Below, piece by piece: positions 8,170 to 61,673 of a DNA stretch of 64,000 nt. The stretch spans positions 3,472,001-3,536,000 of the forward strand of contig NZ_CP054052.1 of assembly GCF_013283835.1 (NCBI RefSeq). The letters run 5' to 3'. The notes under the pieces were generated by a model. The model had not been told where the DNA came from. It was given only the letters and a program-made list of their open reading frames with translations, and did no database searches. A program made the position numbers and the translations under genes. The stretch's first letter is position 1; every line of letters begins with the position of its first letter. This DNA comes from Poseidonibacter lekithochrous. Its GTDB lineage: Bacteria; Campylobacterota; Campylobacteria; Campylobacterales; Arcobacteraceae.

Positions 8170-9549
8170 GTGAAAGAAAAAAATGAATTTTTAAGTAAAA
8201 CTGCCTATAGAATTAAAAGATATTACGGATATACACTAGCAACACTTATATCTTTATCTTTACCATTTATTACTATTGGTGGAAACCACATGTTCTTATT
8301 ATCATTTGATAAGAAACAACTTCATTTATTAGGTACTGCATTTGATATGCAAGAACTATACCTTATGCCATTTTTATTAATGCTTCTTTTCTTAGGAATT
8401 TTTGCAGCTACTTCGCTTGGAGGTAGAGCATGGTGTGGATGGGCCTGTCCTCAAACTATCTTTAGGGTATTTTACAGAGATTTAATTGAGTCTAAATTAT
8501 TAGGTTTAAGAAGAATCAAAAATAAACAAAAAGAACCAGATTGGTCAAAACCACAAAATGCATCTAAGAAAGTAATAGCAGTTATAATTTGGTCAGCAAT
8601 ATCAATAATTGCAGCATCTAACTTCTTATGGTTCTTTGTACCACCAGAAGATTTTTTCACATACTTACAAAACCCTAGCGAGCACATGTTCTTATTCGGA
8701 ATTGTTTTATCAATTGCAGGATTTTTAATTTATGATGTAGTTATATTAAAAGAAGATTTCTGTATTTATGTATGTCCTTATTCAAGAGTTCAATCTGTAC
8801 TTTATGATGATGATACATACCAAGCTATTTATTCTACAAACAGAGGTGGAGACATCTACAATGAAGATAAAGAAAAAATTATCTTTAAAGCAAAAGAATT
8901 AAATGCAACAGATGAATGTACTACATGTGAATCATGTGTAACTGTATGTCCTACTCATATTGACATTAGAAAAGGTCTTCAACTTGAATGTATCAACTGT
9001 TTAGAATGTGTAGATGCATGTACTACAGTTATGGGGAAACTAGGTAAACCTTCATTAGTACAATGGTCTAGTACAAATGCTATTAAAAAAGATATTCCAA
9101 CTAAAATGTTTAGAAAACAAACAATCATGTATGCATCAGCATTACTTATTGTTTTAGCTTTACTATTTGCAATGGGTGGAACAAAAGAGTATATGTTATT
9201 GAATGTAAATAAAACTACTCAATTATACAAAGTAAAAGAGAATAATGTTGTAAGAAATAACTTCTTATTACTTTTCCAAAATACTGAGTCTAAAAAATTA
9301 ACATACCACTTAGAAATCATGGATCACGATGATATTAAAATCAAGAGATTCAAACCATTCTCACTAAGTCCAGGAAAAATGGCTAAGAAAGTATTAATCC
9401 TAGAAACAAATAAAATTCTAGTGAATGATAAGACAAAAGATACACCAATTACAGTAACACTTAAAGCTTATGCAAAAGAAGATCCAGAAAAAGTTCAAGT
9501 CTTCAGAAAAGCTGTATTTATCTATCCAAGAGCGGATAAATTAAAATAA
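8170..9549 (+). CDS. ccoG: Cytochrome c oxidase accessory protein CcoG (RdxA/FixG family)
   Basis: Membrane iron-sulfur protein needed for assembly of cbb3-type oxidase; in other bacteria it acts as a Cu(II) reductase supplying Cu(I) to the CuB site. Membrane segments occur near residues 18-38, 72-92, 138-158, 175-195 and 318-340. The NapH-like motif GGRAWCGWACPQ (about 85-96) and a further CPYSR segment are present. Two ferredoxin-type 4Fe-4S clusters follow (about 254-300; CTTCESCVTVCP and CINCLECVDAC). A C-terminal Ig-like domain is periplasmic. The start is GTG with AAAGG. The oxidase genes are not in this window. Confidence 0.95.
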   Translation: MKEKNEFLSKTAYRIKRYYGYTLATLISLSLPFITIGGNHMFLLSFDKKQLHLLGTAFDMQELYLMPFLLMLLFLGIFAATSLGGRAWCGWACPQTIFRVFYRDLIESKLLGLRRIKNKQKEPDWSKPQNASKKVIAVIIWSAISIIAASNFLWFFVPPEDFFTYLQNPSEHMFLFGIVLSIAGFLIYDVVILKEDFCIYVCPYSRVQSVLYDDDTYQAIYSTNRGGDIYNEDKEKIIFKAKELNATDECTTCESCVTVCPTHIDIRKGLQLECINCLECVDACTTVMGKLGKPSLVQWSSTNAIKKDIPTKMFRKQTIMYASALLIVLALLFAMGGTKEYMLLNVNKTTQLYKVKENNVVRNNFLLLFQNTESKKLTYHLEIMDHDDIKIKRFKPFSLSPGKMAKKVLILETNKILVNDKTKDTPITVTLKAYAKEDPEKVQVFRKAVFIYPRADKLK

Positions 9550-29218: not shown

Positions 29219-29337
29219 GAGCTGGCAGCGGCCTACGTTTCCACAAGGGGACCCTGCAGTATTATCAGCGATGAAGTGCTTGACTTCCAGGTTCGGAATG
29301 GGACTGGGTATTGCCACTTCTCTATTACCACCAGCAA
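29219..29337 (-). rRNA. rrf: 5S ribosomal RNA (copy 1)
   Basis: About 119 bases. Conserved 5S elements are present on the minus strand: CCCATTCCGAACCTGGAAGTCAAGC in loops B-C (positions about 29280-29305) and terminal arms GCTGGTGG / CCGCTGCCAGC. It lies downstream of 23S in the same operon. Ends are estimated to within a few bases. Confidence 0.92.
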
Positions 29338-29463
29338 TATGAGTAATCAACATATTATAAAAAATATATTCATTACTCACATTAAGTGAGTTATAAAAAG
29401 TAATGTTAAAGTCTTTGCGTTATTTCTAACGTCTTTGTTGACACTTAATTATTAAGTATACAC

Positions 29464-29477
29464 TTAATAAGATAGTA
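29464..29477 (-). other. Downstream half of the 23S processing stem (copy 1)
   Basis: The 14 bases TTAATAAGATAGTA are the exact reverse complement of 32455-32468 on the far side of 23S rRNA. In the precursor the two would pair and bring the 23S ends together for RNase III, as in other bacteria. Confidence 0.7.
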
Positions 29478-29487
29478 AACCAAGTTA

Positions 29488-32401
<2,914 letters not shown>

Positions 32402-32788
32402 ATAATTTAGTTGATACAAGTATCAACCGCTTTTTTGAATAATTATTCCTTGGCTACTATCTTATTAAATTTACATTTAATAAGTTAGTTGTGTCTATCT
32501 ATACTTTTTATTTAAACTTTCATTTAAATAAGTTTTTTTAGATATAAAATTTTTTATTTTTAATAAATTCTTCATACGAAAGATTTTATTAACGAAAAAA
32601 TTAAAGACTTTAACATTATGTTTTTAAATATCATTTTGATTATAAAACCAAATATAAATCTTACTCTTTGTAAAACTTATATTTAGTTTCAAACTTACGG
32701 CTTATATAATCTTTATAAACCGAATATAGAAAAGGTTCAATAAACCTTTTTAGTTTGAGTTTAGAAACGAATCTAAACTCTTTCTCTG
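32402..32788 (-). other. 16S-23S internal transcribed spacer without tRNA genes (copy 1)
   Basis: About 390 AT-rich bases. I find no cloverleaf or GTTCGANTC-type T-loop on the minus strand, so the tRNA-Ile/tRNA-Ala pair common in such spacers is absent. It does hold halves of the processing stems for 23S (32455-32468) and 16S (32707-32731). Confidence 0.85.
32707..32731 (-). other. Spacer half of the 16S RNase III processing stem (copy 1)
   Basis: Twenty-five bases that are the exact reverse complement of 34424-34448 in the 16S leader. Pairing would loop out 16S rRNA for RNase III cleavage. The second operon has the same pair at 38616-38640 and 40334-40358. Confidence 0.85.
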
Positions 32789-34305
<1,517 letters not shown>

Positions 34306-35127: not shown

Positions 35128-35246
35128 GAGCTGGCAGCGGCCTACGTTTCCACAAGGGGACCCTGCAGTATTATCAGCGATGAAGTGCTTGACTTCCAGG
35201 TTCGGAATGGGACTGGGTATTGCCACTTCTCTATTACCACCAGCAA
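35128..35246 (-). rRNA. rrf: 5S ribosomal RNA (copy 2)
   Basis: Identical in sequence, as read, to copy 1 at 29219-29337, with the same conserved loops and terminal arms. Ends are estimated. Confidence 0.92.
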
Positions 35247-35396
35247 TATGAGTAATCAACATATTATAAAAAATATATTCATTACTCACATTAAGTGAGT
35301 TATAAAAAGTAATGTTAAAGTCTTTGCGTTATTTCTAACGTCTTTGTTGACACTTAATTATTAAGTATACACTTAATAAGATAGTAAACCAAGTTA

Positions 35397-38310
<2,914 letters not shown>

Positions 38311-38698
38311 ATAATTTAGTTGATACAAGTATCAACCGCTTTTTTGAATAATTATTCCTTGGCTACTATCTTATTAAATTTACATTTAATAAGTTAGTTG
38401 TGTCTATCTATACTTTTTATTTAAACTTTCATTTAAATAAGTTTTTTTAGATATAAAATTTTTTATTTTTAATAAATTCTTCATACGAAAGATTTTATTA
38501 ACGAAAAAATTAAAGACTTTAACATTATGTTTTTAAATATCATTTTGATTATAAAACCAAATATAAATCTTACTCTTTGTAAAACTTATATTTAGTTTCA
38601 AACTTACGGCTTATATAATCTTTATAAACCGAATATAGAAAAGGTTCAATAAACCTTTTTAGTTTTGAGTTTAGAAACGAATCTAAACTCTTTCTCTG
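38311..38698 (-). other. 16S-23S internal transcribed spacer without tRNA genes (copy 2)
   Basis: Same tRNA-free spacer as copy 1, one base longer because of a T inserted in a run of Ts at 38663-38666. Stem halves are at 38616-38640 (16S) and near 38364-38377 (23S). Confidence 0.85.
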
Positions 38699-40215
<1,517 letters not shown>

Positions 40216-59975: not shown

Positions 59976-60638
59976 ATGAATACTCAAAAAGCAATTATAT
60001 TTGATCTTGATGGTACATTAATAGATTCACTAGAAGATATAGCAGTATGTATGAATCAAGTATTCGCAGAAATGGAACTTCCAACACATGAAATAAATGA
60101 TTATAAAAAGTTTGTAGGAGGAGGAGTTGATATTTTAGTAGAGAATGCACTAGCTGACTCTCAACCAAAAGAGATAAAAAAACAAGTAAGTAAAAGATTC
60201 AAAGAAGTATATGACCAAAATTTACATGCTAAGACTTTACCTTATGATGGTATTTATGAATTATTAGAACAATTAGAAGAAGCAAATATTAAAATGGCAA
60301 TTCTGTCTAACAAACCTCATAAGTTCACTTGTCAATATGCACAATCGTTATTTAAAGATAATAAATTTTTAGAAGTACATGGACAAAAAGAGCACATTAA
60401 CAAGAAACCAGATCCAAAAGCAGCTATTGATATTGCTAATAATTTAAATATAAATTGTGAAAATATATATTTTGTAGGAGATACAAAAATAGATATGCAA
60501 ACAGCAAAAAATGCAAATATGAAAGCAATTGGCGTTCTTTGGGGATTTAGGGAAGAAGATGAACTTAGAAAAAATGGTGCAGATTTTATCGTAGAAAAAC
60601 CAAGTGATATTTTTGATATAATTTCTAACAAACTTTAG
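59976..60638 (+). CDS. gph: HAD-family phosphatase, phosphoglycolate phosphatase-like
   Basis: Subfamily IA HAD hydrolase: nucleophile motif DLDGTLIDS (residues 11-19), motif II in ILSNKPH (about 109), motif III Lys in KKPDPKA, motif IV in VGDTKIDMQTA (about 167). Helical cap of the Gph type. Phosphoglycolate is the likely substrate but pyrophosphate or sugar phosphates are possible. Length 220. AAGGAG precedes the ATG. It leads a run with the Cys-rich protein (8-base gap) and rof. Confidence 0.9.
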   Translation: MNTQKAIIFDLDGTLIDSLEDIAVCMNQVFAEMELPTHEINDYKKFVGGGVDILVENALADSQPKEIKKQVSKRFKEVYDQNLHAKTLPYDGIYELLEQLEEANIKMAILSNKPHKFTCQYAQSLFKDNKFLEVHGQKEHINKKPDPKAAIDIANNLNINCENIYFVGDTKIDMQTAKNANMKAIGVLWGFREEDELRKNGADFIVEKPSDIFDIISNKL

Positions 60639-60646
60639 GAGAGAAC

Positions 60647-61018
60647 ATGACAAAATTATTTTTATCTTTTGTAATAGCTACTTTTATGACTATTACATCA
60701 TTAAGTGCAGATTGCGGAATGAAAAGTGAAAACTGCAAAATGAACAAAACTCACTGTGATATGAAAAAAGTAGAGAGTAAAAAACACTGTGATATGAAGC
60801 AAAAAGATTGCGACATGAAAAAGAGCCATTGTGATATGAAGAAAAAATCTTCTTGTGATTGTAAAAGTGGTGAGCAGTGTAAATGTAAAGCCGAAGGTAA
60901 AGCTTCTTGTGACTGCAAAAAAGAAGTTGTGACTCCTAAATGCGATTGCAAAAATACAGGAAATTGTACTTGTAAAGCAAGTGGAAAAGCCTCTTGTGAT
61001 TGTAATATTAAAAAGTAG
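60647..61018 (+). CDS. Exported cysteine/methionine-rich metallothionein-like protein
   Basis: A 123-residue protein with a clear signal peptide (cleavage near LSA, residue 21). The mature part has 18 cysteines. Its first half repeats HCDMK-like units (THCDMKK, KHCDMKQ, KDCDMKK, SHCDMKKK), mixing His, Cys and Met. The second half repeats CxC pairs, with the duplicated KASCDC ending two similar modules. This resembles metallothioneins but is exported, and the Met/His mix suggests copper or silver binding in the periplasm. I know no named family that fits. AGGAGAG precedes the ATG. Confidence 0.88.
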   Translation: MTKLFLSFVIATFMTITSLSADCGMKSENCKMNKTHCDMKKVESKKHCDMKQKDCDMKKSHCDMKKKSSCDCKSGEQCKCKAEGKASCDCKKEVVTPKCDCKNTGNCTCKASGKASCDCNIKK

Positions 61019-61025
61019 TAAGTAA

Positions 61026-61277
61026 ATGAATACTGATTATATACCCGTAGCTTGTCATTTTTATGATGAGTTAGAGAGTGCAGCAGTAAAAAAAACTCTT
61101 AGTACTATTATTTATTTAGATAATGGAAATGAACAAACTATAGAAGATTATGTTGTTGATTTTAAAAATTTAAATAAAGAAGAGTTTGCTGTGTTAAAAA
61201 GTGGCCTTGAAATAAGACTTGATAAGATAATTAGTTTTAACGGTCTTTTTGCTAAAAACTATAACTGTAATGTATAA
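61026..61277 (+). CDS. rof: Rho-binding antiterminator Rof
   Basis: An 83-residue Sm-like fold protein. YIPVACHFYDELE (about residues 5-17) and EIRLDKIISF (about 66-75) match the YaeO/Rof family, which binds the primary RNA site of Rho and blocks termination. It starts 7 bases after the Cys-rich gene, so it is likely in one transcript with it and gph. Its stop codon lies in a perfect hairpin shared with the convergent gene. Confidence 0.88.
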   Translation: MNTDYIPVACHFYDELESAAVKKTLSTIIYLDNGNEQTIEDYVVDFKNLNKEEFAVLKSGLEIRLDKIISFNGLFAKNYNCNV

Positions 61278-61299
61278 AAAGAGAAACTCTTTTTATACA
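61271..61299. terminator. Bidirectional terminator between rof and the next gene
   Basis: Perfect 13-base arms TGTATAAAAAGAG / CTCTTTTTATACA around AAA, containing both stop codons. Confidence 0.82.
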
Positions 61300-61673
61300 T
61301 CTAATTCGAAGAAAACTTCTTCTGTTTTTTGATATTTTGCTACTGAACATGAGATTTTAATTGCATTATCATAATCTCTGAATTCATCACGAAATAGTTT
61401 TTGTAATTTTACTACATCATTTGCTCTAAAAATAAAATATCCTAAAATATCCGTTCCTCTTGAACCTGCTTTTTCAATACCAAAACTATCAAACTTCCAA
61501 TGAACACCTTTTGTAAAAAAGAATACTTCCTTTATTCTTTTCTTTAAATCAGATCTTACATTGTCGTTGAATTGTTTCAAATGCACGTAAAAAGCTACGT
61601 TTGTATTAAATTCATCTTGAACTAATTTTTCTAATGCTGGAGTTGTTGCTTGGTCTAAAATCTCAATACCCAT
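61293..61673 (-). CDS. Conserved protein of unknown function
   Basis: I do not recognise this 126-residue soluble protein. It looks alpha-beta, with a Phe/Lys-rich centre (KEVFFFTKGVHWKFDSFG, about 48-65) and a GYFIFRANDVVKLQKLFRDEFRDYD stretch split over two helices. Two cysteines are absent except one (SCS, about 108). AAAGG lies well placed ahead of the ATG. It is a single gene, divergent from the hemerythrin gene with 176 bases between, which hold two likely promoters. Confidence 0.75.
   Translation of the reverse strand: MGIEILDQATTPALEKLVQDEFNTNVAFYVHLKQFNDNVRSDLKKRIKEVFFFTKGVHWKFDSFGIEKAGSRGTDILGYFIFRANDVVKLQKLFRDEFRDYDNAIKISCSVAKYQKTEEVFFELDV

Follow-up and report, generated by a model that had tools for sequence, protein, structure and literature searches.

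The gene at positions 60647..61018 (+ strand, stop codon included) of the 64,000-nucleotide stretch of Poseidonibacter lekithochrous DNA that we analyzed (the window) encodes a protein of 123 amino acids with 18 cysteine residues, which we consider, with a probability of roughly 0.6, to be an exported, intrinsically disordered sponge that binds a soft monovalent metal; Cu(I), and with it Ag(I), is the likeliest candidate. An initial annotation of this DNA had proposed an exported metallothionein-like copper or silver sponge; this still is the best reading, toward which the anatomy of the protein and the HvfA-type units found in two of its four orthologues point. We infer the identity of the metal, the reduced state of the protein, its clustering and its physiological role from sequence. 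The open reading frame, its strand, its length and its number of Cys residues all proved exact when re-checked, and orthologues occupy the same locus in other genomes; this is a real gene whose architecture is well-formed and rare.

All six Cys residues of the N half (Cys 23, 30, 37, 48, 55 and 62; 60713..60838, + strand) belong to C-x-M units, three of which read HCDM, and all 12 Cys residues of the C half lie in six CxC units that start at Cys 70, 78, 88, 99, 107 and 117. The HCDMK repeat previously ascribed to the N half exists in three copies (Cys 37, 48 and 62), but Cys 55 stands in DCDMK, and only three of the six Cys residues in this half are preceded by His. The description of the C half as two similar modules is fully borne out: both follow the pattern CxC-x5-CxC-x7-CxC (module 1, Cys 70-90, 60854..60916; module 2, Cys 99-119, 60941..61003; both on the + strand), KASCDC occurs twice, and the modules are identical at 43 of 63 bases. 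When the mature protein was shuffled 200,000 times, none of the shuffles placed all 18 Cys residues in CxC or C-x-M units, at least six C-x-M units arose once, and at least six CxC units arose 9,140 times. Six CxC units are thus unremarkable on their own for a protein of such composition; what is remarkable is the clean partition of the Cys residues together with the C-x-M half, rather than the CxC count. Among the open reading frames of at least 80 amino acids in the window, this protein is the richest in Cys (14.6%; next 7.3%).

Metallothioneins are small and Cys-rich proteins that carry CxC clusters and lack aromatic residues. The mature part of the window protein has just this composition, as it comprises 102 amino acids (11.3 kDa) with 18 Cys, six CxC units, 6 Met, 3 His and no Phe, Trp or Tyr. 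It resembles metallothioneins such as SmtA and MymT (PMC7558416) in being small and Cys-rich, in its CxC units, in the lack of aromatic residues and in the lack of a predicted apo fold; unlike them, it possesses a signal-type N-terminus and a separate C-x-M half. Homology does not place it among the metallothioneins, since neither a Pfam metallothionein family nor, by phmmer, a solved metallothionein was matched. The thioether ligands added by the C-x-M half would favor Cu(I)/Ag(I) over Zn. An exported metallothionein serving Zn, Cd, Hg or arsenite instead of copper, with incidental Met residues, is conceivable as CxC is a generic metal-thiolate motif, present here six times, and as the linkers of HvfA-like proteins commonly contain Met as well. 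We nevertheless judge it unlikely: Met occupies position +2 after all six Cys residues of the N half, a number of C-x-M units that only the single shuffle mentioned above attained, and copper is also the metal suggested by the HvfA units that two orthologues carry.

The N-terminus displays the hallmarks of a Sec-type signal peptide (residues 1-21; 60647..60709, + strand), with a basic residue, a hydrophobic stretch (15-residue Kyte-Doolittle peak of 1.95) and L-x-A in front of D/N-C-G-M-K; cleavage would occur after A21. A search for homologues with signal peptides had been suggested, and this signal-like N-terminus, with L-x-A followed by D/N-C-G-M-K, is indeed common to all four orthologues. 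The protein is hence probably exported via Sec, which would send it to the periplasm. There, its six C-x-M units would offer a thiolate and a thioether, and some of them a His residue as well, as ligands for metal capture, and the two (CxC)3 modules would gather metal into thiolate clusters around which the chain would fold. Periplasmic copper would in this way be buffered beside the CusA-type pump and the HvfA metallophore of the same genome.

Exported proteins that bind copper through Cys residues have been described before, namely HvfA/bufferins and Csp1. Csp1 likewise is exported and carries many Cys residues for Cu(I) (PMC7558416), but it folds into a rigid bundle of four helices and has a Tat signal, whereas the window protein has a Sec-type N-terminus and no predicted fold. 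The silver sponge SilE can be likened to the window protein by description only: it is an exported, multi-site sponge for soft metals that is disordered without metal and uses Met/His ligands (PMC5008109); its motifs are of the His/Met type, while the window protein is dominated by Cys. Several points speak against a sponge. The Cys residues could form disulfides in the oxidizing periplasm, and the gene appears in only 4 of 104 family genomes, has no metal gene as a neighbor, yields no Pfam match and, in one orthologue (G009), is devoid of CxC units.

Database searches gave no assignment to a described family. No Pfam family matched it at E-values up to 1; the only NCBIfam model to appear was SpsC (E-value 0.021; 14.4 bits versus a cut-off of 280), which we take as chance, and phmmer returned one hit from the PDB, at an E-value of 0.93, that is not a metallothionein. 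Wider homologues were found neither in a genome contig collection (two queries) nor on plasmids by tblastn, nor in viral contigs, where few short patterns of low sensitivity were employed. An alignment of the four orthologous sequences retrieved, from 398 sampled genomes of the order, the window protein's own genome (G000), G106 and, weakly, G063 (5e-4), and the orthologues of G009 and G112 did not come up; from the 104 family genomes (E-values up to 0.1) it retrieved 19, the four orthologues included. The non-orthologous matches in the latter search (G077, 1.6e-5; G063, 5e-4; the rest, 0.006 to 0.1) lie mostly at hvfA places and are no proof of kinship to the window protein, given that HvfA units are present in two of the aligned sequences themselves. 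With the G106 protein as query, 18 of 397 genomes of the phylum matched, and all matches beyond G106 and the G000 gene were either hvfA places or, in G040, G233 and G313, HvfA-like by reading. A hit at a contig end in G005 (E-value 0.048) was rejected after it had been read. AlphaFold, supplied with the four sequences, predicted no fold (mean pLDDT 40.6) apart from a helix at residues 7-21; this poor model is compatible with disorder, such as a SilE-like sponge would show, and no proof of it, as an alignment of four sequences also gives a low pLDDT. Among the matches listed, the open-licence PMC literature on exported metallothioneins and on copper peptides of Arcobacter/Campylobacterota contains no description of such a family; PMC12452194 yielded no mention of metallothionein, Arcobacter or Campylobacter, and PMC13097082 none of Campylobacter, metallothionein or GAGKCG.

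Orthologues are present at one locus in four of the 104 family genomes, namely G000 and G009, which belong to the same genus, and G106 and G112, which belong to another. In each of these genomes, genes resembling gph and the reading frame at 61293-61673 are close to the Cys gene; a rof-like gene adjoins it in the window and in G009, is separated from it by one gene in G112 and lies at a distance of about 9 kb in G106. At the other rof loci that we examined, all without the Cys gene, gph adjoins rof in ten, a DUF4405 gene lies between gph and rof in four, and a 61293-like gene lies between them in one. In G009 and G112, a DUF4405 gene separates gph from the Cys gene, and the window genome has a DUF4405 match of 32% elsewhere only. 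The window lineage has probably lost the DUF4405 gene and an intergenic stretch, which would explain why the Cys gene directly follows gph. The gene product of 61293-61673 (- strand), a protein of 126 amino acids, has no Pfam match, and a related gene is also present in G017, a genome without the Cys gene.

The four orthologous proteins measure 72, 123, 171 and 189 amino acids. That of G009 has five C-x-M units, one lone Cys residue, no CxC unit and a Tyr residue where the window protein has Cys 72, while those of G106 and G112 each have seven C-x-M and five CxC units. As these two possess CxC units, the sequences are read more economically if G009 has lost its CxC part. The conservation of Cys among homologues, which the initial annotation had made a touchstone of its proposal, is consequently divided: six of the seven window Cys residues that are aligned with a G009 residue are kept, but the rest of the CxC half is absent there. 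This is a rare and fast-changing family. The ratio dN/dS amounts to about 0.2 between the window gene and that of G009 (71 codons; dN 0.150, dS 0.727) and to about 0.1 between those of G112 and G106 (171 codons; dN 0.148, dS 1.372), values that are rough because codons are few and the alignments repetitive. Such low ratios in two lineages support selection on the protein.

The greatly varying lengths, the even number of 18 Cys residues and the direct repeats inside the gene, which measure 22 and 41 nt, could also be accommodated by a protein that has nothing to do with metals, for instance a disulfide-rich or Lys-rich repeat protein acting as a redox buffer or in the envelope, whose repeats spread by slippage. 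We regard this as quite improbable, as the copies of the repeats differ in DNA with their Cys and Met residues retained, as dN/dS is low, and as two orthologues contain units of a copper peptide.

These units provide the most interesting aspect of the family, along with two HvfA-type proteins that contain thiolate motifs and come from genomes in which no MNIO was found. HvfA is reported to be the precursor of a copper-binding RiPP and an exported peptide with Cys repeats (PMC13419390). The proteins of G106 and G112 each bear, between their C-x-M and CxC parts, two SCGAGKCG units of the kind that makes up the local HvfA and the HvfA-like proteins of the group; the assignment was made by reading, and no NCBIfam model matched either protein at E-values up to 0.1. 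The window protein shares with the HvfA/Buf_EGKCG (oxazolin) RiPPs (PMC12452194; PMC13419390; PMC13097082) the Sec-type signal, the Cys repeats and a richness in Lys/Met. It differs from HvfA in that it contains no SCGAGKCG or KCG-type unit (and no match to NF050137 at E-values up to 10), in its signal peptide, in its Cys residues, which mostly precede Asp/Lys, and in the position of the MNIO and its partner genes, which do not adjoin its gene. By BLOSUM62 local scores, the signal is unlike the HvfA leaders, since it reaches 16-24 against five of them versus 66-74 against its three orthologues.

The window genome possesses an HvfABC-type copper-RiPP operon of its own at C1:about 113000-119000 (L096), where cusBA-like genes are followed by an hvfA-like gene, hvfB and hvfC. 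The HvfA-like protein has five SCGAGKCG repeats (NF050137, 2.9e-10; 24 bits for the HvfA equivalog NF050188, cut-off 95), HvfB matches PF05114 at about 2e-88 (NF003818, 319 bits, below the cut-off of 360), and HvfC reaches 87 bits with NF050145, below the cut-off of 142. The only PF05114 (MNIO) match of the genome, at C1:117542-118324, adjoins this hvfA gene. One might suppose, then, that the window protein is itself the precursor of a RiPP metallophore that HvfB/HvfC modify in trans, with 5-thiooxazoles formed on its Cys residues, given that the genome has one MNIO, that the G106 and G112 orthologues with two HvfA units each occur in genomes with an MNIO as well, and that one class of MNIO substrates is characterized by Cys-Lys motifs (PMC13097082). 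We hold this to be very improbable. The window protein has no HvfA units and Asp or Lys follows 15 of its 18 Cys residues, which makes a modification by HvfBC unlikely; in the genome's own HvfA, Gly follows all ten. The related enzyme FonBC left those tested substrates unprocessed that have a charged residue after Cys (PMC13097082). For HvfBC, full-length HvfA is by far a better substrate than HvfA that lacks its signal (PMC13419390), and the signal of the window protein differs from HvfA leaders.

Returning to the sponge and its relatives, the gene at the gph locus of G106 is identical to that genome's own hvfA in 100 of 113 aligned columns; in the final stretch of 53 bases, 51 agree. The corresponding score of 85 is the best among nine hvfA genes, by a small margin over the 79 obtained with the hvfA of G112, and none of 300 dinucleotide shuffles reached it; for the G112 gene, equal scores of 76 were obtained with its own hvfA and the hvfA of G113. 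These data speak for a cassette having been exchanged, in one direction or the other, with an hvfA gene within the genus. A descent of the HCDMKK repeats, and with them of the C-x-M half, from the GGDMKK stretch of HvfA was considered as well and is unsupported because 8 of 300 dinucleotide shuffles attained the score of 20 found between the window gene and its own hvfA; 20 mononucleotide shuffles (maximum 15) had looked better than this dinucleotide test.

Genes for HvfA-like proteins occur in 54 of the 104 family genomes and PF05114 matches in 37, all of them within these 54. The remaining 17 (L068-L084, in which G022 is represented twice, and L087) have no PF05114 match at all; since eight of them are assembled in one or two contigs, this absence cannot be put down to poor assembly alone. 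The HvfA-like gene is flanked by a CusA-type gene and a MATE gene in 15 of the 17. HvfA is possibly left unmodified in these microorganisms; Antoine et al. found Buf_EGKCG without an MNIO to be rare (67 of 2,583 genomes; PMC12452194). The 57 distinct HvfA-unit proteins that we read represent 50 of the 54 genomes (all but G104, G108, G110 and G115; for G019, the main gene is not among them) and include three from other families of the order. Only four combine CxC with C-x-M units: two encoded at the gph locus (G106, G112) and two at the cusA locus (G063, G077). In the HvfA-like protein of G063 (L087:1715-2023), CxC and C-x-M units are mixed in; that of G077 (L073:2010-2327, - strand; genome 76% complete) is a second copy with CxC and C-x-M units and a lipobox-like LTGC. 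Both genomes are among the 17 without an MNIO match, and the other 15 are without CxC/C-x-M units.

We tentatively propose, as a possibility that is still doubtful, that exported metallothionein-like proteins and RiPP copper metallophores of this group are built from one set of swappable copper-binding cassettes (C-x-M, CxC and SCGAGKCG). Cassettes would pass between hvfA and the gene at the gph locus, as in G106 and G112; the HvfA-type proteins of G063 and G077, genomes in which no MNIO was found, would have acquired C-x-M/CxC units, much as though simple thiolates stood in for ligands made by an enzyme; and the window protein would represent the all-thiol end. The family touches two kinds of copper proteins that are usually studied apart, the plain-thiolate metallothioneins and the MNIO-converted HvfA/bufferins. 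If the proposal is true, it would permit a direct test of whether unmodified Cys motifs can replace RiPP modification.

It had further been suggested that the protein supplies copper to the cbb3 oxidase, as a donor or store during its assembly. The window does contain ccoG (8170-9549; FixG_C and Fer4 domains), and ccoN scores over its cut-off twice in G000, but ccoG lies about 51 kb away from the Cys gene, and no Pfam chaperone family matched the 18-Cys protein. We reject this link because the distributions differ: ccoN is found in 101 of the 104 family genomes (97 over the cut-off; not found in G009, which is 86% complete), the 18-Cys gene in four. An involvement in oxidase assembly is accordingly the farthest-fetched role considered here, and the suggestion is unsupported.

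The Cys gene begins at C1:3532647 of 3568672 in a genome that consists of a single contig (3.57 Mb). Among plasmid records, the 16S gene of this genome (window 32789-34305) has its best match in one of Aliarcobacter cibarius (93.1%), which makes the organism a likely Arcobacter relative. The Cys gene is located 8 bp downstream of a gph-like gene for a HAD phosphatase (59976..60638, + strand; PF13419, 1.6e-37), a protein without known role in metal binding, whose stop codon is overlapped by the likely ribosome-binding site AGGAGAG (60637..60643, + strand), and 7 bp upstream of a Rof-like gene (61026..61277, + strand; NF008636, 3.5e-07, 30.3 bits versus a cut-off of 117; PF07073, 0.006). The three genes are probably co-transcribed. 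Upstream of the Cys gene, no metal-responsive motif was seen; promoter-like sites were at chance level (18 found; shuffled sequences gave 14.9 on average, sd 3.9), and no terminator-like site was found. Seven stretches upstream of Cys genes and hvfA had no 9- or 10-mers of note in common; AAGACTCAT is shared by the upstream stretch of G112 and two hvfA stretches. Rof-like matches are present in 47 of the 104 family genomes, three of them in the window's own genome, and some genomes have two rof copies within a single locus (e.g., L025, L027, L032 and L033). Elsewhere in the window, two complete rRNA operons stand in direct tandem (29220-34305 and 35129-40215; about 5.9 kb apart), with a 16S gene at 32789-34305, and the 300-nt stretches compared between the copies are 100% and 98% alike.
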